DNA of 36,800 nucleotides from Methanobrevibacter thaueri (GTDB lineage Archaea > Methanobacteriota > Methanobacteria > Methanobacteriales > Methanobacteriaceae): NCBI GenBank assembly GCA_015062925.1, contig SUTL01000011.1:1-36800 (forward strand), read 5' to 3'. A model generated the notes under the pieces. It was not told the DNA's origin, did no database searches, and worked only from the letters and a program-made list of their open reading frames with translations. Shown here piece by piece: positions 3,301 to 28,935 of the stretch. Position numbers and translations under genes: made by a program. Positions within the stretch are counted from its first letter, which is position 1. Each line of letters starts with the position of its first letter.

Positions 3301-3381
3301 ACCGGAACCAGGTCCTGCTTCTACGAGAAGTGTTCCATTTCCGTGTTCAATAACTTTCTTCTGATTTCCTACAAAGTCCAT
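316..3381 (-). CDS. UvrD/AddA-like ATP-dependent helicase with C-terminal RecB/Cas4-type PD-(D/E)XK nuclease domain
   Basis: 1021 aa; Walker A VEAGPGSGKTTVIVERI, motif II IFVDEFQDTDPLQ, motif VI LYVAMTRAADLL; C-terminal NGAIDLI...VILDYKY and clustered Cys (CDRCSYRLIC). Confidence 0.9.
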   Translation of the reverse strand: MDFVGNQKKVIEHGNGTLLVEAGPGSGKTTVIVERIKELVKQGVDPESFLVITFTTKAADNLKFKLRKELSNSTVLKMQISTIHSFCLEYLKSKNMSLTLLDDDTSEKKTLFIQKFKKELGFVNEATVFDYQIPAVLNKFGEYTCFNVDSNKLIHEINDSRVITKDYLDFVRSMDYFSKKRIDDYDKPLKKNKADDEELFSKSWYNARFLQIAKAYPRYLKLLDEYNYVDYDTLQLKALKELEKDPETKYTTIFVDEFQDTDPLQFRIFEVLRKNCEYFTAVGDVDQHIYAFRSSFNDFFDELIRLDNPDVLSLDVNFRSTENIVNLTEAFITPQRKETSQKHMRSNGKAYNNPNFLLVNENSDDEAQNVYNIIKRLKEMGLKDSDIAVLYRKHSDKTIANLIEKFNSDDDINYSVRGQADLASQNEVKSIITLLWYLSRNTRLGYVPSKDELKELSLKAFCGEYFEPVFWSLEDSTKSYLADLQKTYEDEILRIENEIRQNRGDGKVRAVHNVKKNEDQDTLNEIFKNLQLPIINIDNVHENDKEFFMKLDELRDKIESEEPPTILSVFYELIAMGDLFADTEANYRKIANLAILTQTITNYESFISETDLRGVMFFIMNSIENYESYQKEVEGVQLMTIHAAKGLEFPVTIITSLEKDKFPMVSRDPNREKDFIFPNDTYYTPNECLKYKTILKEENGELKHKSISIEEENHLNDEEEDRILYVAMTRAADLLILSTIGEMPTQIENIRDCTVPFTMEELNNVTIEESYEAPKGEQLVLNYSKYTQYKSCPFKYDLGYNLGFARPGIKAANRGTVFHEIMETVNLKLLDGVKVSAEELSQITYDTYKSMFDIGENPEEFEEFRTNVINYYETYSLERDVMAAELPFEIDKGNYLLNGAIDLIYKVSEDEIVILDYKYAQYDEDHIDGYTKQLYIYAAALKELDEYKNYTIRKAITHFVLGDYQHVVEINDEVMENELNGLNDVAVEIGNGCFSKDSGECDRCSYRLICKPQEFAGGLNG

Positions 3382-3518
3382 AAATTAACCTCCACTTATT
3401 AATTATTTATTAATAAATTCGAATTAAATAATTTTCTAAATTAAATCAATTCTAAAATAAAAGAGATTTATTTTTATGGATTAATGTAAATAATCAATTT
3501 TAATTGCTTTGAAATAAA

Positions 3519-5246
3519 CTACTTCCAAATTTCCTGCATTACTTTAGCCATTGGAATTTTTTTATAATCATTTATTTCCAAATATTTAATCTTTGGACTG
3601 TAAAAACTTTCAAAATCATGAATTTCAATAATTTTTGGTTCACATTTACTTTCACTTTCTTTAAACTCATCCAAATCAGTGAATACTTGAAAACTGAAAA
3701 AAACCTCAGAATCAGTGTAATCTATAATCTTAAATCCCTTAGGATCTTCAAAGATAAACTTTGCAAATCTCAACTCCATTAAGAAATCATTACGCAAATC
3801 ATCTGGAGCATCATCAAATTGACGATATTTATTTAATTTTTTAATTAAACTTTTAATCTTATTGTTTTTGATTTCACTTAACATATTTTCGGAGATTTCA
3901 AACAAATCATTGATTGTGAAATATTTTATATTTTTATCCAAATACATTTCATTTACTTTACTTGCAGGAAGCATTATGACCTGAATATCCTCTAAACCTA
4001 AATCAGAGAGGATATCAAGTTTAACTTTACCTTTATTTTCAATTTTATCGCCGTAAGATGGGAATAAAAATGCATTTTTCACTCCTTTAAACTCATGATC
4101 TTCAATAAACTCTTTAAATGCCAATTCATACAAGTATTGTTTTGTAATGGATTCCAGCCCAGGCTGACCATCTAAATTATCTTGTGTAAACTTCAAATTG
4201 TAATATTTTGCATCCAAAATAACAAATTCACTATCATGAAATGTTACAGTATCAGGAATAAATGTACCTTCAGCTTCTTTCGGATAGATATTTTTATAAA
4301 TCCATTTCGGTTTTTTAATTAAATCAATCAATTTCTTATTTGAAGGATATTTAGAATTTAGATTAACTGGAAGAGTTAAATCCTTTAAGCGTTTATGCAA
4401 TTTATCTCCAAATATGTATGCACATTCCGCTTCCCAGATTTCATGATAAGCTGGAGTTCCATATAACGTCAGATAGTTTTCATTGGTGTGAGCGTTTTTA
4501 TTTGACATATAAGAATACATTGACTGCAGTAACTTCTGTTTTTGAGTGTTAAACTCAACATTAAGCTCTTTTTGAAGTCTCTGCAAAATTAAATCAATAT
4601 CTCCAAAATCATCCTGCTCTTTATCTGAAAGCTCAACAGGAGTCAAGTCAAAGAGTTCCAACAATCCTGCCTTTTCCAGATATATTGAACACTCTGTAAT
4701 GATATATTCATGCAACAGTCTGAAATAGTTAAAAAGGTCATTAATTTTATATTTTGTTTGAAGATCAGTGTAATATGGTTTGCCGTCTTTTAGGATTGCA
4801 ACATTCTCATTAACAGTTCTGTTCCAGTCAATTTCACCATTTCCATTTGTTTGAAGGATATTTTGAATGTTTGAATAAACTCCATTTTCATAGTAATCCT
4901 CTATAAAAAACAGCATCATGGACAGCCGATTGTATGAAATGTCTTCAAGCTCATCGTTTTCGTAGCGAAAATCATCATGGGCATTGTTGTATTTTTTAAC
5001 TACGTTGATAACTTGCTTAAAATCTGCTTTTATATTACTTTCCGAAGTAATGTATTTGGGATATATATTTAGGATAATATTTTCAATGATTATTACACCA
5101 ACATAGACAAACTGATATCCATCATTTGTGAATTTAACTATATCATACTTTAAAAGCTTATCCAAGACGTTTTCATCGTTTTGAAGAATTTCCAGGATTT
5201 TTCTTCTTGAATAGTATTTTAACTCTTTGATGTAGACATTCTTCAT
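3519..5246 (-). CDS. McrC / LlaJI-family restriction endonuclease subunit
   Basis: 575 aa directly downstream of the McrB-like ORF (adjacent stop/start); C-terminal half has PD-(D/E)XK-like IPDTVTFHDSEFVILDAKYY. Confidence 0.75.
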   Translation of the reverse strand: MKNVYIKELKYYSRRKILEILQNDENVLDKLLKYDIVKFTNDGYQFVYVGVIIIENIILNIYPKYITSESNIKADFKQVINVVKKYNNAHDDFRYENDELEDISYNRLSMMLFFIEDYYENGVYSNIQNILQTNGNGEIDWNRTVNENVAILKDGKPYYTDLQTKYKINDLFNYFRLLHEYIITECSIYLEKAGLLELFDLTPVELSDKEQDDFGDIDLILQRLQKELNVEFNTQKQKLLQSMYSYMSNKNAHTNENYLTLYGTPAYHEIWEAECAYIFGDKLHKRLKDLTLPVNLNSKYPSNKKLIDLIKKPKWIYKNIYPKEAEGTFIPDTVTFHDSEFVILDAKYYNLKFTQDNLDGQPGLESITKQYLYELAFKEFIEDHEFKGVKNAFLFPSYGDKIENKGKVKLDILSDLGLEDIQVIMLPASKVNEMYLDKNIKYFTINDLFEISENMLSEIKNNKIKSLIKKLNKYRQFDDAPDDLRNDFLMELRFAKFIFEDPKGFKIIDYTDSEVFFSFQVFTDLDEFKESESKCEPKIIEIHDFESFYSPKIKYLEINDYKKIPMAKVMQEIWK

Positions 5247-7403
5247 TTATTCACCATCATCTGTGATGAAGAGATTTTTAATATCATCTGCAAAGATTTC
5301 AATTCCGATTTCATCAAACTTATCGCAGATTTCAGAGTATGTTACATAATTTTTGGTCTTTGCACCGCTGAACATGTCATTTCTTTTAGAGCGTGCAGCA
5401 TCTTCAAACAAATACATGATAATTTTACTCTTGAATGTATCTTTGAAGATATCAGTTGGTATTTCTTTGTTGTGATATTCATTAAATGCAAAGAACGGCC
5501 CAATACATTTATCCTCATTGATTTTGTATGATAATAATTCATCGTTTATTGCTTTTCTGAGGTCGTTCCAGTTGACCTTTGTATTGTTTAGATTAACATA
5601 TGTATCTTTGATTAAATTTTCATCATTGTTGATAGCGAAATATTTGAAATCCCATCTTCTTTTGAACGCAGTATCCATTGGGAAAACACCCTGGTCAGCT
5701 GAGTTCATAGTTGCCCAGATGAAAAGATTTTGCGGTAAAAAGATTTTATCTTGGTTTAAGTATAATTTCATATCTTCGGTAGTGTCAATTGGATAAACAG
5801 ATTCGTGTTTTTCAGTTCTATCTAGAAGTTGGAAGACATCACCAAAAACCGCTGCAACATTAGCACGATTGATTTCTTCAATGATTAATAAATAAGGTTT
5901 ATCAGGGTTTTCCAAAGCTTTTTTAAGAATTCTCATAAATGGCCCAGGGACATATTTGTAGATAATGTCTTTACCATCAGGATATGGTTTAAATGTTCCA
6001 ACAAAGTTTGCATAGGAGTAATCAGGATGAAAAGTAACTCTTTCATAATTATCTGGAAAACTTTTAAGTAATTTCTCTTTATCTTGGTTTAAACTGTATG
6101 ATTTTCCAGTTCCAGGAGCTCCAAAGTAAATTAAATTACGTTTTTTACTAGATTCAAAATGTTTCGAGATTTTTTTACAATCTTTTAAATCAGTTAATCT
6201 GCCTTCTTCTATTGGGTCCCATGGATTTTCACCTTCAAAAAATAAGTCAATGATTTCCTTATTCAACAAAGAATACAGTTTTATACCTGATTTTTTAGCT
6301 AATTGATAATATTGGCCGTCTTTAATATAATAACCATTTTCAGGTTCAATACGAAATTTACGGAGAGTGTAATCCTTAATATTCACACCATGAACTGCTG
6401 GAAACTTTTCAGGGAAAATCAAAACATAATACTTATGTACCCAACTACTTGTTGGTTTAACAATACAACTTTTGAAAATATCATTTAAATCATTTTCAAG
6501 CTGAGCATAGTCAGAAACCGATTCTAATTTAGCATTTTCAATATGTTTTGCACCATTAACTATAGCATCACGTATTTTAGATCCAACTTCAATTGCTTCA
6601 GATTCATTTAAAATTTTTGGATGTTTTGGAGAACCTGAAGTCCATTGATGTGTTTCATTGCTTTTAAACAAAGAATATTTATATGCTGAACCTCCACCAA
6701 TTCCTCCATGATTAAATTCATCTACAAACTCTAGATTATAACACAAAGTAGACTTATCACTATCATGTAAAAAGATTTTATTGATAATATCTCTATCTTC
6801 AAGACTTTCTAAAACATCAGGACCGAACAATTGCCTGAATTTAACAAAAATACCTTCATCTTCTGAGAAATCATCAATATTATTTTCATCTAAAAACTTT
6901 CTAATTATGCAACTAGCATTATCTATTGCATCCATATTTTTACTATAAACTTTTAAAATGTCTTCTTTAGCATCATCATTAATCTTAAAAACAGTGTTAT
7001 TAGTACCAACTGTTCCTTGAGTTGACTTTTTAAGTGAATCCCTTTGAACTTCACCTAACCATTCAACATCCCTTACATCGCAATAATTATCTCCGGAAGA
7101 ATCCTTTTGAGTGATAATATGAGACCTATAATAATCTGATTTGACTTTTCCTATGAAATATGTCTTAGTGCCTCCTTTAGCTGAAAGAACATAATCACCA
7201 ACATTGATTTCATTTTTAAATCTTAAAACCTGATTGAGTGAACGAGTACTTTTATATTTATTTATGAATAACTCTCTGATTTCATCATCAGATTTATCTG
7301 TTAAATCACCTAAATTCCAACCAATTGCAACAATATTGTTTTTTAAAATTTTATCTATTAAAAAAGCTTGCTCTCCTGCCCTAACCATCCACATATTTAC
7401 CAT
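5247..7403 (-). CDS. McrB-like AAA+ restriction subunit with N-terminal PUA/EVE-like candidate reader domain
   Basis: Walker A IYFGAPGTGKSYSL, LLIIEEINRANVAAVFGDVFQLLD, IWATMNSADQGVFPMDTAFKRRW (McrB signatures); N-terminus MWMVRAGEQAFLIDKILKNNIVAIGW resembles PUA/EVE-type modules. Confidence 0.85.
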   Translation of the reverse strand: MVNMWMVRAGEQAFLIDKILKNNIVAIGWNLGDLTDKSDDEIRELFINKYKSTRSLNQVLRFKNEINVGDYVLSAKGGTKTYFIGKVKSDYYRSHIITQKDSSGDNYCDVRDVEWLGEVQRDSLKKSTQGTVGTNNTVFKINDDAKEDILKVYSKNMDAIDNASCIIRKFLDENNIDDFSEDEGIFVKFRQLFGPDVLESLEDRDIINKIFLHDSDKSTLCYNLEFVDEFNHGGIGGGSAYKYSLFKSNETHQWTSGSPKHPKILNESEAIEVGSKIRDAIVNGAKHIENAKLESVSDYAQLENDLNDIFKSCIVKPTSSWVHKYYVLIFPEKFPAVHGVNIKDYTLRKFRIEPENGYYIKDGQYYQLAKKSGIKLYSLLNKEIIDLFFEGENPWDPIEEGRLTDLKDCKKISKHFESSKKRNLIYFGAPGTGKSYSLNQDKEKLLKSFPDNYERVTFHPDYSYANFVGTFKPYPDGKDIIYKYVPGPFMRILKKALENPDKPYLLIIEEINRANVAAVFGDVFQLLDRTEKHESVYPIDTTEDMKLYLNQDKIFLPQNLFIWATMNSADQGVFPMDTAFKRRWDFKYFAINNDENLIKDTYVNLNNTKVNWNDLRKAINDELLSYKINEDKCIGPFFAFNEYHNKEIPTDIFKDTFKSKIIMYLFEDAARSKRNDMFSGAKTKNYVTYSEICDKFDEIGIEIFADDIKNLFITDDGE

Positions 7404-7415
7404 AAAAACACCAAA

Positions 7416-8333
7416 TTATAATTTTTCATCATAAGATTGTTTAAACAATCTGTTAAAGTAAAAAAAATCATCATCAGAAGTTATATTGAATTCATAATCA
7501 CCTACACCATGATGACCAATATTTGAAACATCCCTAATTCTATTGTCTGGATCTGAAATATCACTGTCTTTTAAATTAATCCAAGTTTTTAAAGATTTTG
7601 CTAAAACACTTAATGAAGCAATTATTTTATTGTTAACTTTAAAAACCAAATAATATTTTAAATGCACTATTTCAATATCATCATATTGAGATAAGATATA
7701 TTCTTTTAAATTTTCATACAATGAAATAATATCATCAGATTTACCATTTAAAGTATCTGCTTCAGTGTATTTTTTAATTTCTTTGTTTACTTTTTGTTTA
7801 TTTTTATCAGAATTAGTGACCTGTTTAATAGAAGCAGAAGTATCAGTATTATTTACCTTATCAAATAAAACAGTGTCATTTGAATATTTAGAAACTTTCC
7901 ATAATTCAAATGCAATATCTGAAAACTCAACAGATTTAAGCTGATAAGTAGTATATGATGGAGATATAAACATTACACGAGTTTGTGTAAAATCAAAATC
8001 TTCTTTACCATTATTTTTACTGAAAACTTGATTATATTTTAAAACAAACTCTGCTTTGTTATTTAATAATAATGAAAGATAACTATAACCTTGATCTATT
8101 ACACTATAATTTTTAACATTTTTATATTCAATAATTACAAAAGAATTGGTTTCACTATCATATGCTAGCGTGTCAATTCTTAAATTATCCACTTGAAACT
8201 CTGTTGCAACAAATTCTAAATTGAAGAGTTCCTCCAAGTTATTTTCAGTTAATCTTTGAAGTTCTCTTTCATTTTTAAAATCCTCTTTTTTAATTAATGA
8301 TAAATTGTTTTCATTGATATTGTAAATAGGCAT
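7416..8333 (-). CDS. NucS/DUF91-like PD-(D/E)XK nuclease with C-terminal DUF5655-like domain
   Basis: NLRIDTLAYDSETNSFVIIEYKN (D...ExK nuclease core); C-terminal RIRDVSNIGHHGVGDYEF typical of DUF5655. Confidence 0.7.
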   Translation of the reverse strand: MPIYNINENNLSLIKKEDFKNERELQRLTENNLEELFNLEFVATEFQVDNLRIDTLAYDSETNSFVIIEYKNVKNYSVIDQGYSYLSLLLNNKAEFVLKYNQVFSKNNGKEDFDFTQTRVMFISPSYTTYQLKSVEFSDIAFELWKVSKYSNDTVLFDKVNNTDTSASIKQVTNSDKNKQKVNKEIKKYTEADTLNGKSDDIISLYENLKEYILSQYDDIEIVHLKYYLVFKVNNKIIASLSVLAKSLKTWINLKDSDISDPDNRIRDVSNIGHHGVGDYEFNITSDDDFFYFNRLFKQSYDEKL

Positions 8334-8401: not shown

Positions 8402-8934
8402 TTATTTAGTTTTTAAAATATCATTTTTAATTTTGTTAAATTCATCATCTGATAAAACTGGAGTTCCTTCAAGTTTAACTAGTTTTTCAACATTTGCATA
8501 AACCATACCATTAGATCTTTTAAGTTTTTGTGGAGTATCTAATTTATAAACTCTTAAAATCCAGATTTTAGCAGAGCTTCTACTTAAGTAACTTTTAACA
8601 TGTTCTCTTGTCCAGATATGGAATTTATTAAAAGCACCAATTCTTGAAGAAGATTTTTCTATGACTTCTTCAACTTTTGCATAGTATTTAACTTCATAAG
8701 TTCTGTTTTCACCATTCGGCAAAAGATTATCTTTTACGAAATCTTTGTATTCCTCTTGAAAAGAGTCTAGAATATCCTCTTTATTAGCTAGCTAATTGTA
8801 GGATATAATAAAAATTCTTTTTGAGTAGTGTTAATTTTTCTAATTAAAACTGTTTGTTTTCCTTGTCCTAATGCTTCAATTGTTGCATTCCATTCATTTA
8901 TGCATTTTGTTATTTCATCCATTTTAATCCCCAT
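8402..8934 (-). pseudogene. DUF1802-like gene, broken by stop/frameshift near 8785-8800
   Basis: Manual translation from ATG 8934: MGIKMDEITKCINEWNATIEALGQGKQTVLIRKINTTQKEFLLYPTIS*; continues in another frame ...NKEDILDSFQEEYKDFVKDNLLPNGENRTYEVKYYAKVEEVIEK... to 8402. The two parts together resemble one DUF1802-type protein. Confidence 0.55.
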
Positions 8935-10636
8935 ATCTATTTTTAATTGATTTATCTAATATGTAAAATAATTGGTTTTTTCCTTTTTTTACCTGTATAA
9001 AATCCATTATAACCTGATTTTTCTTAAAAACTGTTAATAGTTCCTCTAAATTCATCATCCCATCACTATAAAATTTAGCACATTCCTTAGAAAAAGTAGT
9101 TATTATTAAATTATCATCCATAAACATACATTTTTCATTAAATTTATAACCCATATAAACATATAAATTGAGAAATTGTTGTAAACTTTTAACTTGGTTA
9201 AATGTTAATTTTGAGTGTTTTTTTGAAAGATTTTTCGAATCTTTCTTAAATTTCAAATCCCATTTATCTTTTACTCTGAATACCTCAAAGAAACCTACAA
9301 TTGGATGATCAGCCATAATCATTTGTTCTTCATAAATATTGATTAAATATTCAGAGACATATCTATTATTCCATTTTGCTTTAACAATCCCTTTTTCAAA
9401 ATCTATTTTAAATTTAAATTCTTTTTTAAGTGTTTTGCCACAATATGGGCAAAATTTAAAATTATTATTAAATTCTTTTCCACAATTAGAACAGTATAAA
9501 TAAAATTCATTTTCAACTAATCGAGTTACATCAAATAACTTCCTTGAACATAATGGGCAAAACTTATACTCATTATTTTCAAAAGTTTTTCTGCAATTGA
9601 CACAATAAAGTTTTTTGTTATTTTTATTTTGTTCTATTTTTATCAATTCATTATAAAAATAGGTTTTATCTTTGTCATAATGATTTCTACCCTCTATAAT
9701 CCAATTAACAATTTTTGTTAATGGAATTCCTGTAACCTCTGATGCTTCTTTTCTAGTTTTTCCCTTACGAATTTCATCTAAAACAGAATCCATTTGTATT
9801 AAAATAGGTTCTGATGAATAAGTAATAAGTTGTTTTTCAGAATAGGTCCTATTATACATTTTATTAACATTTTTCGAATTAGGATATTTGTAAATTAAAT
9901 TATGAATATTAGTTGATTTTGAAAAATAATTTAAAGTAAATAAGGGATTTAAAATTTCAATTGATTTTTCTGCAATGTTACTAATATTACTCTGAGATTT
10001 ATCAAAAATCACAACGGGATTAGTTTTAGAAATAAAATCAATGGGTTTATTTCCTCCAAATTTGTCATTTTCATTATTAATAATATTATTTTTAGAATTG
10101 AAACTATCCAAAGTCATAATCATGATTTGAATATTATCAGATACAGCAAAGTTTCTAATAAGTTCTAAATTTGAAGAATCATAACAAAATGAATCATAAT
10201 AAATAGAATTATAAAGTTCTTTAAAATGTTCTTTAGTATCCTCAATAATATTATAAACAAAATTTAATTGAGATTTATTTAATACAATAATGATAAACTT
10301 TGTTAAACCATAATGTTTATTTAATTCAAAAATAGTTCTTAAATAAACATAAATTTTACCTTTTTCTCCATCAATTTGAATATCAAAATTTAATTTATCT
10401 AAATTATTAGTATAATTTAACTTATTATACTCCTGAACAAATTTTAGATTTTCTAAAATATATTCTTTGGGCATATCCATAAAATTACCATTTCCTACAT
10501 CTAAAGAAAAATATCTCGGCACAGTAAAATAATTATTAACTGAATGGACACCTATAAAAATATTTATTACCGAATTTACAGCTTCTACTTGATAATCTAT
10601 ATTTGAATCCCATTGAATATTCATAATTTTAATCAA
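8924..10636 (-). CDS. Res-derived degenerate helicase paralog with HTH and two zinc ribbons
   Basis: N-terminal ~260 aa aligns by eye with the adjacent Res (DYQxEAVN, YDSSxLExxRNFAV, TNPVVI) but Walker A METGTGKT becomes QIDGEKGKI and DEPQ becomes DKSQ; then HTH-like EIRKGKTRKEASEVTGIPLTKIVNWI and zinc ribbons CVNCRKTFENNEYKFCPLC / CSNCGKEFNNNFKFCPYC. Confidence 0.8.
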   Translation of the reverse strand: MIKIMNIQWDSNIDYQVEAVNSVINIFIGVHSVNNYFTVPRYFSLDVGNGNFMDMPKEYILENLKFVQEYNKLNYTNNLDKLNFDIQIDGEKGKIYVYLRTIFELNKHYGLTKFIIIVLNKSQLNFVYNIIEDTKEHFKELYNSIYYDSFCYDSSNLELIRNFAVSDNIQIMIMTLDSFNSKNNIINNENDKFGGNKPIDFISKTNPVVIFDKSQSNISNIAEKSIEILNPLFTLNYFSKSTNIHNLIYKYPNSKNVNKMYNRTYSEKQLITYSSEPILIQMDSVLDEIRKGKTRKEASEVTGIPLTKIVNWIIEGRNHYDKDKTYFYNELIKIEQNKNNKKLYCVNCRKTFENNEYKFCPLCSRKLFDVTRLVENEFYLYCSNCGKEFNNNFKFCPYCGKTLKKEFKFKIDFEKGIVKAKWNNRYVSEYLINIYEEQMIMADHPIVGFFEVFRVKDKWDLKFKKDSKNLSKKHSKLTFNQVKSLQQFLNLYVYMGYKFNEKCMFMDDNLIITTFSKECAKFYSDGMMNLEELLTVFKKNQVIMDFIQVKKGKNQLFYILDKSIKNRYGD

Positions 10637-10642
10637 CCCAAT

Positions 10643-13615
10643 TTAATCAACTACATCAGTTTTAAATTTCTCATATGTATCTGCTACATCAAAGTGTACA
10701 TTTGTTCCAAGTGCTTCAAAATGCTTTCTTCCACAGTCAATTTTAGCTTGCTCTGTTGGCCTAAGTGCCAAATAATCAGTTGATCCTTTTGTTTCAACGA
10801 CAAAGTAAAGATTAGTTTCACCATCTTTATCTAACATTACTGCCCAATCAGGATTATAACTACCTAATGGAGTATCAACTTTAAACCATCCTGGAAGTTT
10901 AGTGTACAATTTAACTTCTGGATCATTATCTAAACTTTTAGCAAATTCTTTTTCAACTTCACTATCATAAATAATGTGATCATATACAGAGTGTTGAGCT
11001 TCAATCATATTACGTTCTAAATAACCAAATAACTCATCGTTTTTAAATAACTCTTGTGAGTATGAATCATCGATTTTTGTGTATTTAATTCCATCAACAA
11101 TCATCATACTCATTACTTTATTGATTAATTTAGCAGTTTGTTGCATGTATTCTTGAGGATTCTTTTTAAATTGATTTAATGTATCACTTTCAGTTAAAAT
11201 CCTAACAATAGTTCTTCTTGTTAGGTCTGTTTCATTTTGCAAGTAAGTTACAATATCAGGTAGGGCAATTTCATCTTCTTCAGAATAAGCTGTAGTTATG
11301 TATCCATTTTCATCAGGTATAACTCCAGCGGCTTTAATTGTTACACCACTTTTAGTGTAAATTAATTTTGGAGCTTTAACATTTAGTGAATCTTCCATTG
11401 CAGTTATACATTTTTCAACTAATTCATCTGTGTCAAATTCAACTGCATAAGTTGTTTTATGCTTAATTGAATCCCAGAATTGCTTAAATTCTGGACTTAA
11501 ATAAACATGTTTGTTAACTTTAACCTGACGACGTTGTTTTGCAGGTCTGATTTTAATACCTTTTGTTGGTTTTTCAACAACTTCTACAATTTCTGGTCTT
11601 ATTGATTCATAGTCTTCTGGAATATCAATAGTACCATCACGTACAGCGACTTTAAGTGCTTCTTGGATTTTTCCTTTTGAATCAATATATTTTTTAAGTT
11701 TAAAATGATTGAAAATAGCTAGAGAATGCTGTTTACCCAATGGTTCTTCATTACCTTTTTTATTAATCCATGGAATATGAGCAAATGCTGTTTTTTGAAT
11801 TGTGCCAAATTTAATCCCAGTTTCATCTTCAATTTCTTGTTGTAAGTTACGTGCAAAGTCTTCATATGATTCATTTGCCATAATGGTTAAAATGTTAGTG
11901 TTTTTATCATGAATCCTTTCACCATCTTGGTTAACACATAATCTTAAACCACGACCAATCTCTTGGCGTTTTTTCATAGTTGAAGTAGTTTCATTTAAAG
12001 TACAAATTTGGAACACATTAGGATTGTCCCAACCTTCTCTTAATGCAGAGTGTGAGAAAATGAATTTTAATTTAGTATCAAAGCTTAAAAGTCTTTCTTT
12101 ATCTTTCATAATCAGGTTAAATGTTGATTCATCATCTTTGTTTGCTCTGACTTTTCCAGCTTTTGTTTCTTTAGTATCCTTAACTTTTCCTTTTTTATCA
12201 ACTGAGAAATATCCGTCATGAGCTTCTGATGCTTCTAAATCCAAGTCAACATAATTGTATAATGTTGAATATTTTGGTTTTTTAATGACTTTTTTATATT
12301 CCTCTTCAAAAATTTCAGCGTAAGGTCCTTTAATTGGATTTCCCTCTTCATCATATTGTCTGTAATTTGCTACTTTATCAATGAAAAAGAGACTTAAAAC
12401 CTTGATTTGTTTTCCGGCTTTAGCAAAAGCTAGCTCTTTATCTAAGTGTTCTTCAATGGTTTTGTGAATTTGCGCTCTTTTAAGTTTTAAATCATCAACA
12501 TCACCAAAGACTTTACCAATCCTTAAAATTTCATCCTTTTGTGTGAATGTGACATATTCATTACCTTCTTCACAATAAATTTCATCAACGACATAACCAT
12601 TGTAAACATCACGGTTTCCAAGTTTTGCTTCTGATAGGTCTGAACCTTGTTTAACTGTAACAGCTTTTCTTTTAATGGAACCTTTTACATTAGCATCAAT
12701 TTCAATTTTAGCAGTTATAGGAGATTTTTTATTATTAGTTGAAATTAATTTTAAGTAAGCGTCATTATGAAAACCCTCAGATACAAAACCTGCAACTTCA
12801 ATTTGTTTTACAAGTTCCATTTCAGATGCATCAACAGCATCAAGTTTATAGATGAGATTTTGAATTTCCTTATGAGTTGCAGAGTATCTTAAAGTACATA
12901 AAGGGTTTAAATATGATACTGCTTCTTCACCTTTACCACCCATTACAGATTGAGGTTCATCAATGATTACAACAGGATTAGTTTCAGCAATCAAATCAAT
13001 TGGTTTATATCCACTTAATTTATCCTGTTCCCTGTGGATGATATTTGCCTTAGTTTCCTTAGATGGGTCTTTAAAACTTTTGTTAAAAGCATCAATGTTA
13101 ATAATCATTATCTGGATGTTAGAGTTAACAGCAAAGTTTCTGACTTGTTCCAGTTTTGATGAATCATAAACAAAGTGGTCGTAAATTACATTATCATAAA
13201 GGTTTTTAAAGTGTTCTTTTGTAATTTCAATAGTTTTGTTAACTCCTTCTTTGATTGCAACACTTGGAACTACAATAATAAATTTAGTGAAGTTGTATTT
13301 TTTATTGAGTTCAAAAATTGTTTTTAGATAAACATAAGTTTTACCAGTTCCAGTTTCCATTTCAATGTTGAAATCTAAGCTTGGTAAAGACTCTGAAGGC
13401 GCAAGCTTATGGTAAGACTGTATTTTTCTTAAGTTTTCTAAAATATCTTCATGTGAAATATCTATTTTATTTCCAATACCTTGACCTGAGTCTAATGTAG
13501 CCTGACCAGTTACAGTAAAATACTGATGCATAGCATTTTGACCTTTAAAAAGGTCGGTAACTGCATTTACAGCTTCAGTTTGATAGTCAAGATTTGAATC
13601 AAATTTAAGTTTCAT
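10643..13615 (-). CDS. res: Type III restriction enzyme, Res subunit (DEAD/DEAH helicase + C-terminal PD-(D/E)XK)
   Basis: 990 aa; METGTGKTYVYLKTIFELN, IIDEPQSV, FSHSALREGWDNPNVFQICTL, RQEIGRGLRL; C-terminal YNPDWAVMLDKDGETNLYFVVETKG nuclease motif; directly downstream of mod copies. Confidence 0.93.
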   Translation of the reverse strand: MKLKFDSNLDYQTEAVNAVTDLFKGQNAMHQYFTVTGQATLDSGQGIGNKIDISHEDILENLRKIQSYHKLAPSESLPSLDFNIEMETGTGKTYVYLKTIFELNKKYNFTKFIIVVPSVAIKEGVNKTIEITKEHFKNLYDNVIYDHFVYDSSKLEQVRNFAVNSNIQIMIINIDAFNKSFKDPSKETKANIIHREQDKLSGYKPIDLIAETNPVVIIDEPQSVMGGKGEEAVSYLNPLCTLRYSATHKEIQNLIYKLDAVDASEMELVKQIEVAGFVSEGFHNDAYLKLISTNNKKSPITAKIEIDANVKGSIKRKAVTVKQGSDLSEAKLGNRDVYNGYVVDEIYCEEGNEYVTFTQKDEILRIGKVFGDVDDLKLKRAQIHKTIEEHLDKELAFAKAGKQIKVLSLFFIDKVANYRQYDEEGNPIKGPYAEIFEEEYKKVIKKPKYSTLYNYVDLDLEASEAHDGYFSVDKKGKVKDTKETKAGKVRANKDDESTFNLIMKDKERLLSFDTKLKFIFSHSALREGWDNPNVFQICTLNETTSTMKKRQEIGRGLRLCVNQDGERIHDKNTNILTIMANESYEDFARNLQQEIEDETGIKFGTIQKTAFAHIPWINKKGNEEPLGKQHSLAIFNHFKLKKYIDSKGKIQEALKVAVRDGTIDIPEDYESIRPEIVEVVEKPTKGIKIRPAKQRRQVKVNKHVYLSPEFKQFWDSIKHKTTYAVEFDTDELVEKCITAMEDSLNVKAPKLIYTKSGVTIKAAGVIPDENGYITTAYSEEDEIALPDIVTYLQNETDLTRRTIVRILTESDTLNQFKKNPQEYMQQTAKLINKVMSMMIVDGIKYTKIDDSYSQELFKNDELFGYLERNMIEAQHSVYDHIIYDSEVEKEFAKSLDNDPEVKLYTKLPGWFKVDTPLGSYNPDWAVMLDKDGETNLYFVVETKGSTDYLALRPTEQAKIDCGRKHFEALGTNVHFDVADTYEKFKTDVVD

Positions 13616-13627
13616 CTTTTAAATCTC

Positions 13628-15551
13628 CTATATTGTTATAAACTCATCTATATTATTTGTTTTTAATATTTCTTTAATGTTGGTTTTATCAGCGTCTGAT
13701 TTAAAACCGCTGTCTTTGAAAACAACTCTTGAAGTTGAAGAGTTATTTGTAAGTTTTAATATTTGATTTGTAATATCTTTTGTGATGTTATTGTCAAGAC
13801 AAATAATTAAAGCTCCAAAACCAATTGAATAAATGTTATCTATTTGTTCGATTGGATATGTGAGATCAATTCCATATTTAAGCATGATTTCATAAACTAA
13901 ATCTTCATTGGTTCTGCCTTCTTTAATATTATCTATTGTTAAAGATTGTTGGAGGTTATTGTAGTCAGGATCCCATTTTTCAAGGTTTGAAGAGTCTAAT
14001 TTGAATACTTTAAATCCTATATCTAAATCTTTGTTATTAGATTCTTCTAAGATTTTATCACCTGCTCTTCTGATTCTTTCTTTTCCTATTTCACAAATAT
14101 TGTAAAATCCTTCTTTAAAAGCTTTTGATTTTTCATCAATTTCCTCAGGAATTTGAACCATGATAAATTTTCTATTATTTTTATCTTCATTATTATATTG
14201 TAAAACTGCATCTGCTGTGGAAGCAGAACCTGAAAAGAAATCTAAAATTATACCTTCTTTAAATTTAGATACTTCCATCAAATATTTTATTAAAGAAGTT
14301 GGTTTAGAATAATCAAATGGTATATTTAATTTATTTAATTCATGTGACCCAATTTGATTAATGTGATTTTCTATGAAGCTATTCGGTTTAGCTGAAGAAT
14401 TTTCTAAAACATCATTTAAATATGTTTTAGTATACACATTCCATTTAGCAGGATTTTTATTTTCATCTAATAAATTTGAAGATTTGACTCTTTTAACCAC
14501 AATTTTATCTTTATTTTCTTCAAATGTTTTTCTACTCCATCTCCATATACCATCTCCTAAATTTGGTCTTTCAGGAGGAAATGTGGAACCAGGAGGTATA
14601 ATTTTACTACCATCCGGGCAATCAATCCAAAATCTTTGTTCAGGATTTCTATTACGTATAGTTGACATATATAATCTAACTAATTGGTATTTTTCACCTT
14701 TACGAGGACCTTCTTGTTCTATTAACTTATAATTTTCAACATTAGCTCCTCCAGAAAATTGAGGAGTTAAATTAACATTTTTTGCATATGTTAAAATATA
14801 ATCAAAATTTGGAGACCAAAAATCACCTTTATTATTACTTTTTTTAGTTATCCTTCCAGCACAACCAATAAAATTTTCTTCACCAAATATCTCATTACAT
14901 AACTTTTTAAGATTTTCTATTTCATTTTCATCAATACTTAAAAAGATAACACCATCATCAGTTAATAAGTTTCTAGCTAATTTTAATCTTGGAAACATCA
15001 TATTCAACCAATTACTATGATATCGTCCACTGGATTCTGAATTAGTTGAAATCTTTATACAATTGTGTGTGTGTGTGTGTAGAATTATCTAAACTCTTAA
15101 CTTGACCTGAAATTTTTAAGTAATTTTCTAAATTATCTTTATAATTATCAGGATAAATAAACTCTCTACCCGTATTATACGGAGGATCTATATACATCAT
15201 TTTGATTTTATTATAATAACCTTTTTGTAGTAATTTAAGAACTTCTAAATTATCCCCTTCAATATACAAATTTTGAGTTGTATCCCAGTTCTTACTTTCT
15301 TCCTTACAAGGCCTTAATGTTCCGGTTGATTGTTTTTGAGATTCTTTTATAGCTTGAGTTTTTCCAGGCCATGTGAAAGAATATTTTTCACGTGAATCAT
15401 CAATGTCTTTTCCTAAAATTGATTGTAATTTTTCAAAATCAATTTTATTTTCAGTTATTACTTCAGGAAATATTTCCTTTAATTTAGAAATATTATCTGA
15501 AATAATATCTTTACTTTGCCCATCTAATTTTGTTTCATTCATTTTAACCAC
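13628..15551 (-). CDS. mod: Type III DNA adenine methyltransferase Mod copy 3, phase-OFF (two ORFs 15551-15042 and 15007-13628)
   Basis: N fragment has IDPPYNTGREF (motif IV), C fragment has ILDFFSGSASTADAV (motif I); the parts are joined through an (AC)8 tract. Span 1924 nt; +2 nt gives 642 codons with no stop across the junction in my translation. Confidence 0.9.
15065..15080. repeat. Dinucleotide microsatellite (GT)8 on + strand, (AC)8 in mod copy 3
   Basis: aattGTGTGTGTGTGTGTGTagaatt, located exactly where the mod ORF is frameshifted. Confidence 0.97.
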
Positions 15552-17459
15552 TATATCGTTATAAATTCATCAATATGATTAATTTTAAGTATTTCTTTAA
15601 TATTAGTTTTATCTGCATCTGATTTAAAACCACTGTCTTTGAATACAACTCTAGAAGATGAAGAGTTTTTCGTTAATTTTATTATTTCATTAGCTATTTC
15701 TTTTGTGATATTATTGTCAAGACATATTACTAATGCTCCAAATCCAATTGAATAAATATTATTGTGTTCTTCAATTGGTAAAGTTAAATCAATTCCATAT
15801 TTTAGCATGATTTCATAAACTAAATCTTCATTAGTTCTATCTTCTTTAATATTATCAATTGTTAAAGATTGTTGAAGATTATTGTAATCAGGATCCCATT
15901 TTTCTAAATTAGAAGAATCTAATTTGAATACTTTAAATCCTATGTCTAAATCTGAGTTTTCAGATTCTTCAACAATTTTATCTCCCGCACGCCTAATACG
16001 CTCTTTACCAATTTCACATATGTTTCTATAACCTTCTTTGAATGCATCAGTATTATCATCAATATTTTCAGGAATCTGAACTAAAATAAACTTATTATTT
16101 TGTTTATTTTCAATATTTAATTCAAAAATGGATTCAGCCGTTGAAGCAGAACCTGAAAAAAAATCAAGATATATTTCATCATTTTCAGATTTAGAAAAAT
16201 TTAATAAATATCTCATCAAGGAAACAGGTTTAGGATAATCAAAAATCTTTTTATTACCAAATAATTTCTTTAAATATTTTCCAGCATTTTCTGTTGTATC
16301 TACATTAACTGATTTATCAATGAAATTCTTTGGGACTTCCGGATCGTATGAATCTTTTTCATATGAAGGAGATAAAGTCTGAGTTTTGATAGAAATTATA
16401 GTATTATTCCTAATTTCATTTAATAACTTTTCTTGACTCCATTTAAATTTACTAGTTAATTTAATCTCTTTAATAAAAATACCATCTTTAATTTCTGTAT
16501 CTTCTTCAAGAATGATTTTATAATTATCAGTTCCATAATAACCTTTTTTTAATACTTGATTTTTTAATTTAGTCTTTACAATATTTTTAGGGAATATTAA
16601 TGTTTTTTCAGAGTTTGTTTGATTTAATAAACCATTATCACTTTTACTAAATTTCATTATACCTTCATATTTAGAATTATTTAGAATTTTTTCATAAACT
16701 AAAATATATTCAATATTCTTTTTTATTTTTTTAGATAAATTTGGTGGAGTTTCACTTTTATACCAATTAAATTGGCCAATGAAATTTTCCTCACCAAATA
16801 TTTCATTACACAATTTTTTTAAATTTTCAATTTCATTATCATCTATACTTATAAAAATTACACCATCATCTCTTAGAAGATTTCTAGCTAATTTTAACCT
16901 AGGATACATCATATTTAACCAATTTGAATGATATCTTCCAGATGTTTCAGGATTACTAGTTAATTTAATTCCAATGCTCTCTCTCTCTCTCTCCTTCAGA
17001 ATCTAAAACTTGACCAGAAATTTTTAAATAATTTTCTAAATTATCTTGATAATTATCTGGATAAATAAAATCTTTACCTGTATTATATGGCGGATCAATA
17101 TAAATAGCTTTTATCTTATTATAATAACCTTTTTGAAGTAATTTAAGAACTTCTAAATTATCACCTTCAATATATAAATTTTGAGTTGTATCCCAGTTCT
17201 TACTTTCTTCCTTACAAGGCCTTAAAGTTCCAGTAGATTGTTTTTGAGATTCTTTAATAGCTTGAGTTTTACCGGGCCAAGTGAAAGAGTACTTTTCACG
17301 AGAATCATCAATCTCTTCCCCTAAAATTAATTTTAATTCATCAAAATCAATTTTATCTTCAGTTACTATCTCTGGAAATATTTCTTTTAATTTAGAAATA
17401 TTATCTAAAACTATATCTTTACTTTCTCCATTTAATACAGATTCATTCATTTTAATCAC
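15551..17459 (-). CDS. mod: Type III DNA adenine methyltransferase Mod copy 2, phase-OFF (two ORFs 17459-16965 and 16912-15551)
   Basis: IDPPYNTGKDF in N fragment, YLDFFSGSASTAESI in C fragment; joined through a (GA)8 tract. Span 1909 nt; +2 nt gives 637 codons with no stop across the junction. Confidence 0.9.
16977..16993. repeat. Dinucleotide microsatellite (CT)8+C on + strand, (GA)8G in mod copy 2
   Basis: ccaatgCTCTCTCTCTCTCTCTCcttcag at the frameshift point. Confidence 0.97.
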
Positions 17460-19342
17460 TTATATCGTTATAAACTCTGAAATATTATTAACTTTTAATA
17501 TTTCTTTTATATTGGTTTTTTCCGCATCAGAAGCAAATCCACTGTCTTTAAAAAGAACACGAGATATAGATGAATTTTTTGATATTTTTAAAATTTCATC
17601 AGTGATATCTTTTGTGATATTATTGTCTAAACAAATAATTAATGCACCAAAACCAATTGAATAAATATTATCATGTTTTTCAACAGGCAATGTTAAATCA
17701 ATACCATATTTTAACATAATTTCATAAACCAAATCTTCATTAGTTCTATCCTCTTTAATATTATCAATTGTTAAAGATTGTTGAAGATTTTTGTAGTCTG
17801 GATCCCATTTTTCTAGATTTGAAGAATCTAGTTTAAAAACTTTAAATCCAATATCCAACTCTTTATTTTCTGAATCTTTAATAATATTTTCTCCAGCTCG
17901 ACGAATTCTTTCTTTCCCAATTTCACAAATATTCGCATAACCTTCATTATAAGCTTCTGATTTTTCATCAGTAGCCTCAGGAATTTGAACCAAAATAAAT
18001 CGTCTATTACTATTTTCTTCAGCATTAAGTTTTAAAACACCATGTGCAGTTGATGAAGAACCTCCAAAGAAATCTAAGATAATTGAATTTTTATCAGAAC
18101 CAACTTTCTGAATAAATTTAATTAAATCCAATGGCTTTGGAAATGAAAAAACATTTTTCTCCATAATTTCATTAAAATCATTACTTCCTTTTCCATTTGA
18201 AAAATCAATTAATGCCCTATATGGATTTTCTCGAATATATGGTTCATTATTATTATCAACGAATTGATATTGTTTAATATAAACTTTCCATTCAGAATCT
18301 CTCTTTTTAAATTCAATGAAATTATTTTCCAAACCCCATTTAAATTTTGGTTCACTCCATCTCCAGGTATTTGGTTTTCCTTTTTTACCTCCAGAAAAAA
18401 TGATATTTCCATCAGGTGTTGTTATTGGATAATCCATCTTTTCACTATAAGAACCACTATAGTTTAAATCTCTTAAATAATATTTTCCTCTTTTTTCAAC
18501 AAATTCATCAGAAAATTTATATTTCGGATCATCATCAACATTGACAGGTTCTTGATTAATTTTAACTTCTTCAATATTTTTTGCATAACATAATATATAA
18601 TCAAATTCAATTGCTATATTTTTACTATCATGACCACTTCCAGATTTATTTTTTCTAACAAAATTACAAATAAAATTTGATTCACCGAATATTTCATCAC
18701 ATAATTTTTTTAGATTAAATTCTTCATTATCATCAATACTAATGAAAATAACTCCATCATTAGTTAATAAGTTTCTAGCTAATTTTAATCTTGGATACAT
18801 CATATTCAACCAATTACTATGATAACGACCTTGTGTTTCAGTATTTGTAGTCAATTTAACACCAAATGGTGTGTGTGTGTGTAGTCTTCTAAATCTGAAA
18901 CTTGTCCAGAAATTTTTAAATAATTTTCTAAATTATCTTTATAATCATCAGAATAAACAAAATCTTTACCGGTATTATAAGGAGGATCAATATAAATAGC
19001 TTTAATTTTATTATAATAACTTTTTTGAAGTAATTTAAGAACTTCTAAGTTATCTCCTTCAATATATAAGTTTTGAGTTGAATCCCAGTTTTTGCTCTCT
19101 TCCTTAAAAGGCCTTAAAGTTCCTGTTGATTGTTTTTGTGATTCGCGAATAGCTTGTGTTTTACCAGGCCAAGTAAAATTATATTTTTCATGAGAACCAT
19201 CTATAAATTCACCAAAATTTGATTTAAATTTATCAAAATTAATTTTATCTTCACTAACAATATCTGGAAAAAGTTCTTTTAAAATTTCAATATTTTCATG
19301 AACAATATCCTTACTTTCTCCACTTAGTTTAGTTTCAATCAT
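17460..19342 (-). CDS. mod: Type III DNA adenine methyltransferase Mod copy 1, phase-OFF (two ORFs 19342-18851 and 18854-17460)
   Basis: IDPPYNTGKDF in N fragment, ILDFFGGSSSTAHGV in C fragment; joined through an (AC)7 tract. Span 1883 nt; -2 nt gives 627 codons with no stop across the junction. Confidence 0.9.
18869..18882. repeat. Dinucleotide microsatellite (GT)7 on + strand, (AC)7 in mod copy 1
   Basis: caaatgGTGTGTGTGTGTGTagtc at the frameshift point. Confidence 0.97.
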
Positions 19343-20137
19343 TTACTCACCTTTTAATTCATTAATTAATTTTTCTTTTTCAATCTTAAACTTATGAGCT
19401 TCAATATTCAAATCCATTTTACGATTAAAATTATCTTCTTCAGAAATCTTTTTTTCAATTTCTTTAATTTTTTCATCAAAAACAGAAATTTCATCATATA
19501 TTCTTTCAATTTTCTTAATTGGCAGATAAACTGGCTCTCCAGCAATGATTGCAGCATCATGTTGCACTATTGCTTCAAGATAATTATTGTAAAATTTATA
19601 GAAATCACTACGCTCTAAATTATCGAATTGTATTTTTGTTATAAAATCATCTTCAATTTCACTTAAATTATCAATGTCCATCCAGTTTGTTGATCTTTTT
19701 TTGCCGTCAAGTACGATTTTATCATAATCTTGTTTGCTTTCACGTATATGTGATGCATAAAATTTCAATTCATTTTCATATTGTATTGTTAAAATTAATG
19801 GATAAGGGATAAAACGCATGACAATATCTGCAATCCTATCAATTTTATCATCTTCTTTGAATTTCCCAACACCAATCTTGTGAACGTTATCATATTTTAG
19901 GTTAATGTTGATTAATTCAACTTCATCATATCTCCTTTCACTATCTTCATATGGACTTACTCTAATATTATCTTCAGTAAAGTTATAGCACCATTTAATC
20001 TGTTTTATTAAATCCGTGAAAATTTTTTTATCTTTAGTTTTAGAGTCAGCAGCCTCAAAAATATCTTTTTTTGGTATTACACTGTCAACAATACAATCCA
20101 TTGGAACTTCAAGAATATCTTCAATTAAAACCATCAT
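19343..20137 (-). CDS. DUF4391-like protein
   Basis: 264 aa between helicase and mod; PKKDIF...FTDLIKQIKWCYNF...IADIVMRFIPYPLILTIQYENELKFYASH pattern with C-terminal coiled coil; genomic position fits DUF4391 next to Type III mod genes. Confidence 0.65.
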   Translation of the reverse strand: MMVLIEDILEVPMDCIVDSVIPKKDIFEAADSKTKDKKIFTDLIKQIKWCYNFTEDNIRVSPYEDSERRYDEVELININLKYDNVHKIGVGKFKEDDKIDRIADIVMRFIPYPLILTIQYENELKFYASHIRESKQDYDKIVLDGKKRSTNWMDIDNLSEIEDDFITKIQFDNLERSDFYKFYNNYLEAIVQHDAAIIAGEPVYLPIKKIERIYDEISVFDEKIKEIEKKISEEDNFNRKMDLNIEAHKFKIEKEKLINELKGE

Positions 20138-20138
20138 A

Positions 20139-23100
20139 TCACCTGATAATTAAAAATGTAATTAACTCAAATTCTTCAAGTCCATCAATGTCTTTTTTAA
20201 CAACTGCTGTTCCACCTTTTTTAAACAGGCTTTTAACACCAGTTTCTTGTTTTTTACCCAATATATCTTCAATTGTTTCAACTAATAACTCAGAATACAT
20301 TGACATATCTTTTCCATCTTTAGTATCATAGTTAAATTCTTTAACAAGATTCACTAATACTTCTTTTTTACCAAGACATAATTTCTTATAGTAATCTAAG
20401 ACTTTTTTAGATTTAATGTATGAAAATTTAACTTCTGAATCCTCACCAATATAAACAAGATAATATGGACTTAACGGATTTTTCTCTAAGTTTTCAGTTG
20501 TACCAGAAACCTGTTTTAGTAAAAATATCACTCCAGGTTCAACTTCTTCTAGAATATCTGATGGAATTTGAGTAATTGAATATATTCCTCTTGGAGCTTT
20601 TTCAAGTTCAGATTTATTTTCTTTCATATAATCCATTAATTCTATCTTAAAGTCATTGAATGTTAAATCTGTAATTGAAATTGAATTTCCAATATCTTCT
20701 AAATCAAGAACTCTATCTTGTAATTCTTCCAATTGATTTTTACGATAAGTTAAATCGTTCATTTTTTGATCATCAGAAATAATGTTTTCTTCACCTGTTG
20801 CTGACACATCTACCATTACCATACGATTTTTAACACGTGCTTCAAGGTCAATGTATTCATCAAGTTCCATGTTTGGCCAAAAGTTTACAAGTTGAATTTG
20901 TTTATTTTCAGATCCAATCCTATCAATTCTTCCAAATCTTTGAATAATACGTACTGGATTCCAGTGAATATCATAATTAATTAAATAATCGCAATCTTGT
21001 AGGTTTTGACCTTCAGAAATACAATCAGTACAAATTAAAATATCAATTTCATCAGTTGCATCAGGTTCAATATTTGCTCTTTCTTTTGATTTTGGTGAGA
21101 AATTTGTTAAAATTTCATTTAAATCACTTTGAGTAACATTAGATAAAGTTGTTTTATTTGAATCCCCACCAGTAACTAATGCAGAGTGAACTCCAAATTC
21201 ATCTAAAGCCCATGAGTTAATATTTTTATATAAATATTTTGCAGTATCAGCAAATGCTGTGAAGATTATAATTTTTTTATTTCCAGGGTTAATCGGATTG
21301 ATAATTTTATTTTTAATCTTTTCTTTTAAATCAGATAATTTTTTATCTCTATCTGGAGTAATTTCATTAGCCTTTTTAAGTAACTCTTCAAGTTTGATTT
21401 TATCTAACTCTAAATCTCCTCTCCATTTAAGTTCATCAATATCCTGAAGCAAAACCTTCCTTTTCTTACCAATCATTAAATTATCCCAATCTTCATCATC
21501 ATCTTCTAAGTTAATGTTATTGATACCTAAATCAGGATTATAATCAACCCCTTTATCTAATTTCTTTAAAGTATCATCAATTAAATAAAGAATCCTTTGT
21601 GTTGTAAGTTTAAATGCATGAATAGAACTTTCCATACGTTTCAGGAGATTGATTCTCATCAAATGGGTTACATTAACATCACGGTCTAGTTGTTTAAATG
21701 TTGAACCCCTACCTACAACCATATCATATTTTTCTTCATATTCGTGTTTTTTATCTAATCGAATATATCTCATTGGAGAATATATTGCCATTTCTAGACT
21801 TGAAATATCTCTATTAATTGATTCCAGGGGTGGAAACATCTCTTCCGTATCAATTTCTGATTTTACATTAATAGGCCGTAGCCTTTCTGGGAAATCTCCA
21901 ATTTCAGCTAAATCATAATATTTTTCAATATGTCTTCTTGAACGTGCAATAGTTAATGTATCTAATAATTGGAAATAATCTAAATCAATTGTATCTACAA
22001 AACTAGCTCCAGTTCTTTCTGATTCAGGCTTTTTAGACCATTTATTAAAAGCCATCTGTGCATTTTTAAGTGTTGTTTCAATACTTTTAATACCTGCATC
22101 AACTAATGCATCATCTTGGTCTTCTGTAATAAATGCAATCTGATTTTTAATATCAGTCATTTTATTGTTAACAGGTGTAGCAGATAACATTAACAAACGT
22201 GTTTTATGTCCTCCTTTAATGATTTCATTCATTAATTTTTGATAACGTGTTGTGCGATCTTTAACAGCTGGATTGTTTCTAAAGTTATGAGATTCATCAA
22301 TAACAACTAAATCATAATTTCCCCAGTTAATTGTTTTAAGGTCAATATCCCCAGACATTCCTCTTTCACGACTTAAATCTGTGTGATTTAGCACATCATA
22401 GTTAAATCTGTCATCAACAAAAATGTTTCTTTTATCATTTTTAGTGTATATTGTCCAGTTGTCTCTGAGTTTTTTAGGAACTAATACTAAAACACGGTCA
22501 TTTCTTGACTCATAATACTTGATTACTGCTAGTGCTGTGAAAGTCTTACCTAAACCAACACTATCCGCTAAAATACAACCATTGTATTTCTCAATTTTAT
22601 CAATTACACCAATAGCGGCGTCTTTTTGGAATTTATATAATTTATTCCAAATTTGAGATTCTTTTAGGTTGTTTCCTTTACGAACAATATTATCTTCATC
22701 CAATGAATCCAATTCATTAGAAAAAATATTATAAAGTGATAAAAAGTAAATAAACTCTGCAGGATTTTCCTTGTGCATTGTCTGCATCTGATTTAAAACT
22801 TCCTCTTTAACATCTTCTAAATAATCATCATTTTCCCATAAGAAGTTAAATTGCATTAATGATGATTGTGTGAAATCTTTTCCATAAACGCACTGGTTCA
22901 TGTCTTGTCTGTCTGATTTTTTTAATCCTAATCCCGCAATTGTAAAATCAACAGTTCCATTAATGGCAATATCAGTATCATCACCATTATCAACACAAAT
23001 CATACGTGGCTGTGCTTCATTAGGAGTTTTAAATGATTTTATTTCAACTTTCTCACGAATCCATTCAGAACATTCTTTAGAAATAGATCCCTGTGTTAAT

Positions 23101-23399
23101 TCATTTTTAAGTTTAATTTCATAATCTCCTCCAAAAATAGAGTTATTATCAATGTAGTATTGGCGTGATTCTTTAGTATTATCTTTTAAAAAACTAGGTT
23201 TTGTGTAAATAAAACGCATATTGTCAATTTTATTTAAATCTTTTTTAAGATTATCATAAGCATACATTGAAAATAATGCTGAAATAACTGAAAGCTTAGA
23301 ACCTTTTTTAATGTTTTCAGTTAGTTCCTGATAAACAAAATTAAACTTGTTATCTAAAATTTTAGGAGCTTTCACAGTCAATTTAACCAACCTTAACAA
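20139..23399 (-). CDS. SNF2/HepA-type superfamily 2 helicase with N-terminal extension (possibly PLD-like); true start may lie downstream of 23399
   Basis: ILADSVGLGKTFTALAVIKYY, LVVIDESHNFRN, RLLMLSATPVNNK, ILICTDCISEGQNLQDCDYLINYDIHWNPVRIIQRFGRIDRIGS. Listed start is TTG. Confidence 0.88.
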   Translation of the reverse strand: MLRLVKLTVKAPKILDNKFNFVYQELTENIKKGSKLSVISALFSMYAYDNLKKDLNKIDNMRFIYTKPSFLKDNTKESRQYYIDNNSIFGGDYEIKLKNELTQGSISKECSEWIREKVEIKSFKTPNEAQPRMICVDNGDDTDIAINGTVDFTIAGLGLKKSDRQDMNQCVYGKDFTQSSLMQFNFLWENDDYLEDVKEEVLNQMQTMHKENPAEFIYFLSLYNIFSNELDSLDEDNIVRKGNNLKESQIWNKLYKFQKDAAIGVIDKIEKYNGCILADSVGLGKTFTALAVIKYYESRNDRVLVLVPKKLRDNWTIYTKNDKRNIFVDDRFNYDVLNHTDLSRERGMSGDIDLKTINWGNYDLVVIDESHNFRNNPAVKDRTTRYQKLMNEIIKGGHKTRLLMLSATPVNNKMTDIKNQIAFITEDQDDALVDAGIKSIETTLKNAQMAFNKWSKKPESERTGASFVDTIDLDYFQLLDTLTIARSRRHIEKYYDLAEIGDFPERLRPINVKSEIDTEEMFPPLESINRDISSLEMAIYSPMRYIRLDKKHEYEEKYDMVVGRGSTFKQLDRDVNVTHLMRINLLKRMESSIHAFKLTTQRILYLIDDTLKKLDKGVDYNPDLGINNINLEDDDEDWDNLMIGKKRKVLLQDIDELKWRGDLELDKIKLEELLKKANEITPDRDKKLSDLKEKIKNKIINPINPGNKKIIIFTAFADTAKYLYKNINSWALDEFGVHSALVTGGDSNKTTLSNVTQSDLNEILTNFSPKSKERANIEPDATDEIDILICTDCISEGQNLQDCDYLINYDIHWNPVRIIQRFGRIDRIGSENKQIQLVNFWPNMELDEYIDLEARVKNRMVMVDVSATGEENIISDDQKMNDLTYRKNQLEELQDRVLDLEDIGNSISITDLTFNDFKIELMDYMKENKSELEKAPRGIYSITQIPSDILEEVEPGVIFLLKQVSGTTENLEKNPLSPYYLVYIGEDSEVKFSYIKSKKVLDYYKKLCLGKKEVLVNLVKEFNYDTKDGKDMSMYSELLVETIEDILGKKQETGVKSLFKKGGTAVVKKDIDGLEEFELITFLIIR

Positions 23400-28798: not shown

Positions 28799-28935
28799 AG
28801 ATTTTTATCTGATCCTTTGACCAACTTTCCGGAATCTCATCTATATTAATCAAATTAACCACCTTCAGTAAACTATCTATTGAATGATAATAATATAACT
28901 TGTGTATAAATATGATTATCATTAAATATACTAAT

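Follow-up and report, generated by a model that had tools for sequence, protein, structure and literature searches.

The closest described relative of the protein reported here is Res, the subunit of the type III restriction enzyme EcoP15I that cleaves DNA. In those parts of its structural description on which we draw (PMC4490356), the RecA1 domain spans residues 7-269, Res docks on the MTase domain and the CTD of one Mod (ModA), and residues of motifs Ib and Ic touch DNA phosphates. Our protein, here termed pseudo-Res, shares with EcoP15I Res (4zcf_C), and with the family profile REase_III, the RecA1 lobe, its Q-arm hairpin and its fold, and its gene also adjoins mod and res. EcoP15I Res has ATPase motifs, RecA2, Pin, a spacer and a nuclease; in pseudo-Res, by contrast, the motifs are destroyed, and a helix-turn-helix (HTH) module, zinc ribbons and another domain stand in place of the remainder. 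Pseudo-Res also resembles the pseudoenzymes that serve as decoys or regulators: active-site motifs are lost, the scaffold is constrained, and the gene lies beside an active copy. A narrow literature search found no type III Res example of such a decoy or regulatory pseudoenzyme. A third resemblance is to HTH/double-zinc-ribbon proteins of Methanobrevibacter (439 aa, L013; 218-229 aa, L014 and L071; 430 aa, L070), with which the HTH module, the DZR and the C-terminal domain are shared, but none of these has a Res lobe, and none has all three parts in the order seen in pseudo-Res.

Results

Domain architecture of pseudo-Res

The window that we analysed is a stretch of 36,800 nucleotides from an assembly named Methanobrevibacter thaueri (GCA_015062925.1, contig SUTL01000011.1). 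The gene and its surroundings are laid out as follows:

8402..8904, minus strand: DUF1802 gene, broken in two frames (profile positions 1-47 and 55-173 match in separate frames)
8924..10624, minus strand: pseudo-Res gene, 566 aa with an ATG start; the alternative start is a TTG at 10636
8927..9424, minus strand: ~165-aa C-terminal domain that matches no family and has relatives among zinc-ribbon proteins of the same genus
9425..9604, minus strand: double zinc ribbon with 8 Cys, arranged as four CxxC pairs; Pfam DZR and DUF7575 over cut-off
9626..9814, minus strand: HTH module, which many genomes of the genus also encode, alone or arrayed, within large zinc-ribbon proteins
9875..10624, minus strand: catalytically dead RecA1 lobe (aa 1-250) from a type III Res; 52% identity to the adjacent Res, match to 4zcf_C 8-266, structure prediction
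9914..9925, minus strand: motif III remnant FSKS (SATH in Res), by alignment
9992..10003, minus strand: motif II remnant DKSQ (DEPQ in Res), by alignment
10352..10372, minus strand: Walker A remnant DGEKGKI (ETGTGKT in Res), by alignment
10643..13615, minus strand: type III Res of 990 aa, intact, with the nuclease domain and the full set of motifs, by profile matches
13628..15551, minus strand: mod1, split by a (GT)8 tract (plus strand, 15064-15079)
15551..17459, minus strand: mod2, split by a (CT)8 tract (plus strand, 16977-16992)
17460..19342, minus strand: mod3, split by a (GT)7 tract (plus strand, 18869-18882)
19343..23399, minus strand: 264-aa protein without family match and SNF2-type helicase (PADLOC C3a139)

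An intact frame at 8924-10636 had been reported in a preliminary description, and we find it so: it lies on the minus strand and, counted from the TTG, encodes 570 aa with zero internal stops. The likeliest start is the ATG at 10624, as judged from an alignment with 21 Res N-termini (MNIQWDSN, against MKLKFDSN), and this codon is 18 nt from the stop of res, on the same strand. Similarity to Res ends at about residue 250, which is the end of RecA1; since the aligned portion, residues 8-266 of EcoP15I Res, covers RecA1 and nothing beyond it, the break falls on a domain boundary. In a profile search the lobe matches PADLOC REase_III with an E value of 2.4e-53. AlphaFold2 models it with pLDDT values that are mostly 80-97, the Q-arm hairpin included, and the top Foldseek match for the model is 4zcf_C (E 6.7e-15); the lobe is confidently predicted to keep the RecA fold.

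Beyond the lobe, structure prediction yields the four helices of the HTH module (aa 271-333), and these are followed by the ribbons (about aa 341-400), which score 28.5 bits against Pfam DZR PF12773 (cut-off 27.3) and 32.2 bits against DUF7575 (cut-off 28.5) and in which 8 of 8 cysteines are intact. Both modules had been correctly recognized in the preliminary description, as had their substitution for the rest of Res; what had been overlooked is the domain of ~165 aa that follows the ribbons. For the C-terminal half the pLDDT is 37.6 when it is predicted alone, and it is low in the full-length model too. The RecA2 lobe (motifs V and VI) and the PD-(D/E)xK nuclease are absent, and RE_endonuc gives no match. 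As a single unit this architecture is absent from Pfam, NCBIfam, PADLOC and PHROGs, and a narrow literature search found no paper on such a Res-lobe/HTH/zinc-ribbon fusion; within that compass, the earlier impression of an undescribed arrangement holds.

The modules downstream of the lobe have relatives of their own. Many proteins of the genus contain the HTH module, as one copy or as an array, and several of these proteins are >1000 aa and equipped with their own zinc ribbons. In four genomes of the genus, double-ribbon proteins of 218-229 aa are related to the ribbons plus C-terminal domain, and a further relative of the C-terminal domain is a 430-aa zinc-ribbon/HNH-like protein, again of this genus; viral contigs contained no relatives of the C-terminal part. 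Because HTH, ribbon and C-terminal relatives all occur in the genus, we regard pseudo-Res as a mosaic of a Res lobe and genus-typical domains. On contig C153 of the window's own assembly, a type I hsd locus is followed by an intact DUF1802 gene and then by a double-ribbon/C-terminal-domain gene; the DUF1802 gene directly downstream of pseudo-Res is the broken one, and intact copies lie elsewhere in the genome (C153, C142).

Loss of catalytic motifs and constraint on the scaffold

The alignment with Res is in register across each motif: METGTGKT of Walker A has become IDGEKGKI, with G-K retained, IIDEPQS of motif II has become IFDKSQS, and YSATHK of motif III has become YFSKST. The losses at Walker A, DEPQ and SATH had thus been aligned properly from the outset, and to these we add motif Ia (VPSxAIKEGV to VLNKSQLNFV), which was missing from the original list. 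By the yardstick of Walker A/B (GxGKT, DExx) and motif III, pseudo-Res does not qualify as a Res; as judged from its sequence, it is a lobe that has lost ATP binding and hydrolysis and has kept the fold.

These changes are not spread evenly. Across 20 other Res proteins, 73 alignment columns are invariant; 26 of the 73 are changed in pseudo-Res, and they comprise 17 of 25 columns in motifs I, Ia, II and III versus 9 of 48 elsewhere (Fisher p 6.6e-5). A neutral simulation with the gene's own AT bias gave near-equal loss in motif and non-motif columns. Segment conservation is inverted: the motifs are the best-kept segments among Res proteins and are among the worst in pseudo-Res, which retains 63-73% around motifs Ib and Ic and at residues 205-215. 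Retention of clade-specific residues around motif Ib suggests continued use of a Res-like contact.

Another line of evidence comes from the reading frame itself. In the same neutral simulation, a frame of 247 codons hardly ever stayed free of stops: of 10,000 runs, no more than 2 kept it open at the lowest of the divergences, and 0 did so at any higher one. Two-ratio codon maximum likelihood assigned the pseudo-Res branch an omega of 0.07 and rejected omega=1 (2dlnL 23.8, p 1e-6), these omega values being rough because the synonymous signal (dS) is saturated. Furthermore, identity between pseudo-Res and Res at the three codon positions is 0.63/0.77/0.52, which resembles the 0.62/0.78/0.45 of two functional Res genes at the same distance. 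Loss of catalytic residues from a scaffold under purifying selection, which is the sequence signature of a pseudoenzyme, is what we find in this one lineage, and it is the picture expected of a protein that had given up its ATPase but still had its fold and part of its contact surface. The preliminary description of an intact and constrained, if disabled, Res relative is borne out by the motif-specific loss, the codon model and the stop-codon simulation, and the same three results rule out simple decay of a tandem copy, very recent inactivation excepted. There are also indications of weakened constraint: the pseudo-Res branch measures 1.4-2.3 changes per site versus 0.02-0.3 for close Res proteins, and the GC content of the lobe, 0.20, makes it the most AT-rich coding stretch measured. 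An AU test of pseudo-Res and the adjacent Res as sisters (recent duplication) gave p 0.051.

Genomic neighbourhood and distribution

The genes run in the order SNF2 helicase, 264-aa protein, mod3, mod2, mod1, res and, last, pseudo-res; one other genome (G064) has this order with a single mod and without pseudo-res. The named close relatives of the Res protein belong to Methanobrevibacter and other Methanobacteriaceae. Its motifs and nuclease are intact, as the functional look ascribed to it in the preliminary description would require, but in the window's assembly none of the three mod genes is in frame. The same is true of the other assembly that contains the locus, so that those cells may have no Mod available for binding.

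The dinucleotide tracts that interrupt the mod genes sit at the same place in all three, after DPPY. Their unit counts are 8, 8 and 7 in the window and 7, 11 and 5 in the second assembly (G010). The window's contig (C57, assembly G000) and its G010 counterpart (C13) are without substitution over 35.8 kb and differ solely in these three repeat-tract lengths; this shows directly that tract length varies, and hence that an archaeon has three phase-variable mods with one shared Res. Tracts at the same place in mods were also seen in M. curvatus, a metagenome-assembled genome named M. olleyae, Methanobrevibacter sp. 87.7, Ca. Methanoflexus and two further genomes (G006, G088); in such mods of other Methanobacteriaceae they are GA tracts, at L049:83-102, L069:9706-9721 and 11558-11579, L078:1897-1916, L080:4996-5009, L081:5394-5409 and L103:103-120; in the last of these the frame is open through the tract. 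The pattern suggests conserved archaeal phasevarions. Bacteria are known to have type III mods that repeats switch on and off, for example AG repeats in Mycoplasma (PMC3498834); in the literature we found no report of them in archaea, and a survey of archaeal restriction-modification has phasevarions only among its references.

Downstream of pseudo-Res (window positions 316-8333) there is a defence island with a PDC-S18 candidate of 305 aa, a McrB-like AAA_5 protein with a PDC-S02-like N-terminus, a LlaJI-type restriction enzyme and a UvrD-type helicase whose C-terminus looks nuclease-like by eye. Also by eye, two apparent paralog pairs can be discerned in the window: endonuclease/exonuclease-type genes at 27323-28081 (full) and 28406-28798 (truncated), and PDC-S18-like genes in opposite orientation at 7416-8333 and 28900-29742.

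Among 152 genomes of the phylum, pseudo-Res was found only in the window's assembly and in G010, where the copy is 100% identical; the two copies are not independent, because the 35.8 kb around them are identical. No independent ortholog was found in the 152 genomes or in collections of viruses, phages and plasmids. Nor was one, or any other tandem degenerate Res, seen near 80 Res loci from other genomes and 4 viral loci, in a scan that read up to 7 kb of flank with search patterns that favour an intact Walker A. Short Res frames of 331 aa in two genomes (G042, G038) were considered as further pseudo-Res genes and set aside: Walker A and DEPQ are kept in them, and the one in G042 is a frameshifted ordinary Res, the remainder of which lies in another frame. 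The two assemblies are classed as different species despite the identical ~36 kb, and when 6 kb from a different contig of G000 were compared with G010, no near match appeared. The window's contig may be a recent transfer or, more likely, has been mis-binned from a G010-like strain (5% contamination). An assembly misjoin is an unlikely source of the fusion, the junction being 100% identical in two assemblies that differ at their repeat tracts.

Discussion

In this gut methanogen, pseudo-Res appears to be kept by natural selection; it is known from one lineage and probably serves the restriction system in an accessory or regulatory capacity. The specific role that we put forward, tentatively and at rather less than an even chance, is that of a non-catalytic accessory of the type III system, a brake on Res cleavage while phase-variable Mod switches. 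From the arrangement and make-up of the gene we infer co-expression with res, DNA binding, contact with Mod and braking, and these might be connected as follows. Since any of the mods can turn on at random, every such event would confront Res with a chromosome that is not methylated. The dead lobe would then take the place of Res on Mod, on the DNA beside Mod, or on both; the HTH module and the ribbons would hold pseudo-Res to DNA; and cleavage by Res would be damped until the chromosome had become methylated. A putative decoy for Mod is plausible. To our knowledge there is no earlier case of a self-encoded decoy for type III restriction, and that pseudo-Res should be one strikes us as quite unlikely.

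We also weighed a reading in which pseudo-Res is a defence protein that binds DNA or senses nucleic acids, of the HTH/zinc-ribbon/C-terminal-domain type found in the genus, with the Res lobe captured only as a structural or DNA-clamping module. The protein would then act independently of Mod and Res, and its place in the island would be incidental. Such a protein would be in familiar company: the HTH module and the ribbon/C-terminal pair occur without a Res lobe in other genomes of the genus, one relative is zinc-ribbon/HNH-like, another lies beyond a type I hsd locus, from which an intact DUF1802 gene separates it, and LlaJI-type and McrB-like restriction genes as well as PDC-S18 are present in the island. 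It would, however, have to be coincidence that the captured lobe is of the same Res type as the gene 18 nt upstream, and the clade-specific residues retained around motif Ib suggest a Res-like contact; we consider this reading somewhat unlikely.

Alternatively, pseudo-Res could be a once-functional domain fusion that is now slowly decaying, or that was inactivated too recently for stops to have appeared. The broken DUF1802 gene next door, the very long branch, the low GC of the lobe and the single-lineage distribution are all in keeping with this, but 566 codons stay open within a 23%-GC stretch, the lobe keeps a codon-position GC gradient (0.29/0.20/0.12), the losses are concentrated in the motifs and not uniform, and the ribbon cysteines are intact; we judge it unlikely, and such decay, if any, must be recent. 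That pseudo-Res might be a transcriptional regulator of the mod-res operon, analogous to the controller (C) proteins that restriction-modification systems use, with its HTH and ribbons put to that purpose and its Res lobe sensing free Mod, would suit an operon-terminal gene with such domains but is very improbable, given that the HTH family is also arrayed in proteins of >1000 aa, which is atypical for a transcription factor. C proteins are mentioned in a recent review (PMC12707154).

Should pseudo-Res bind to Mod or to site-bound complexes, we would learn from it how a specificity that flips at random can spare the cell's own chromosome, and the problem of self-cutting is one faced by every phasevarion with an active Res. 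It would also supply the laboratory with a natural inhibitor of type III restriction, in the form of a dead lobe. Even as a mere fusion remnant, pseudo-Res would illustrate the capture of a domain within a defence island, and the apparent archaeal phasevarions may prove more important than pseudo-Res itself.
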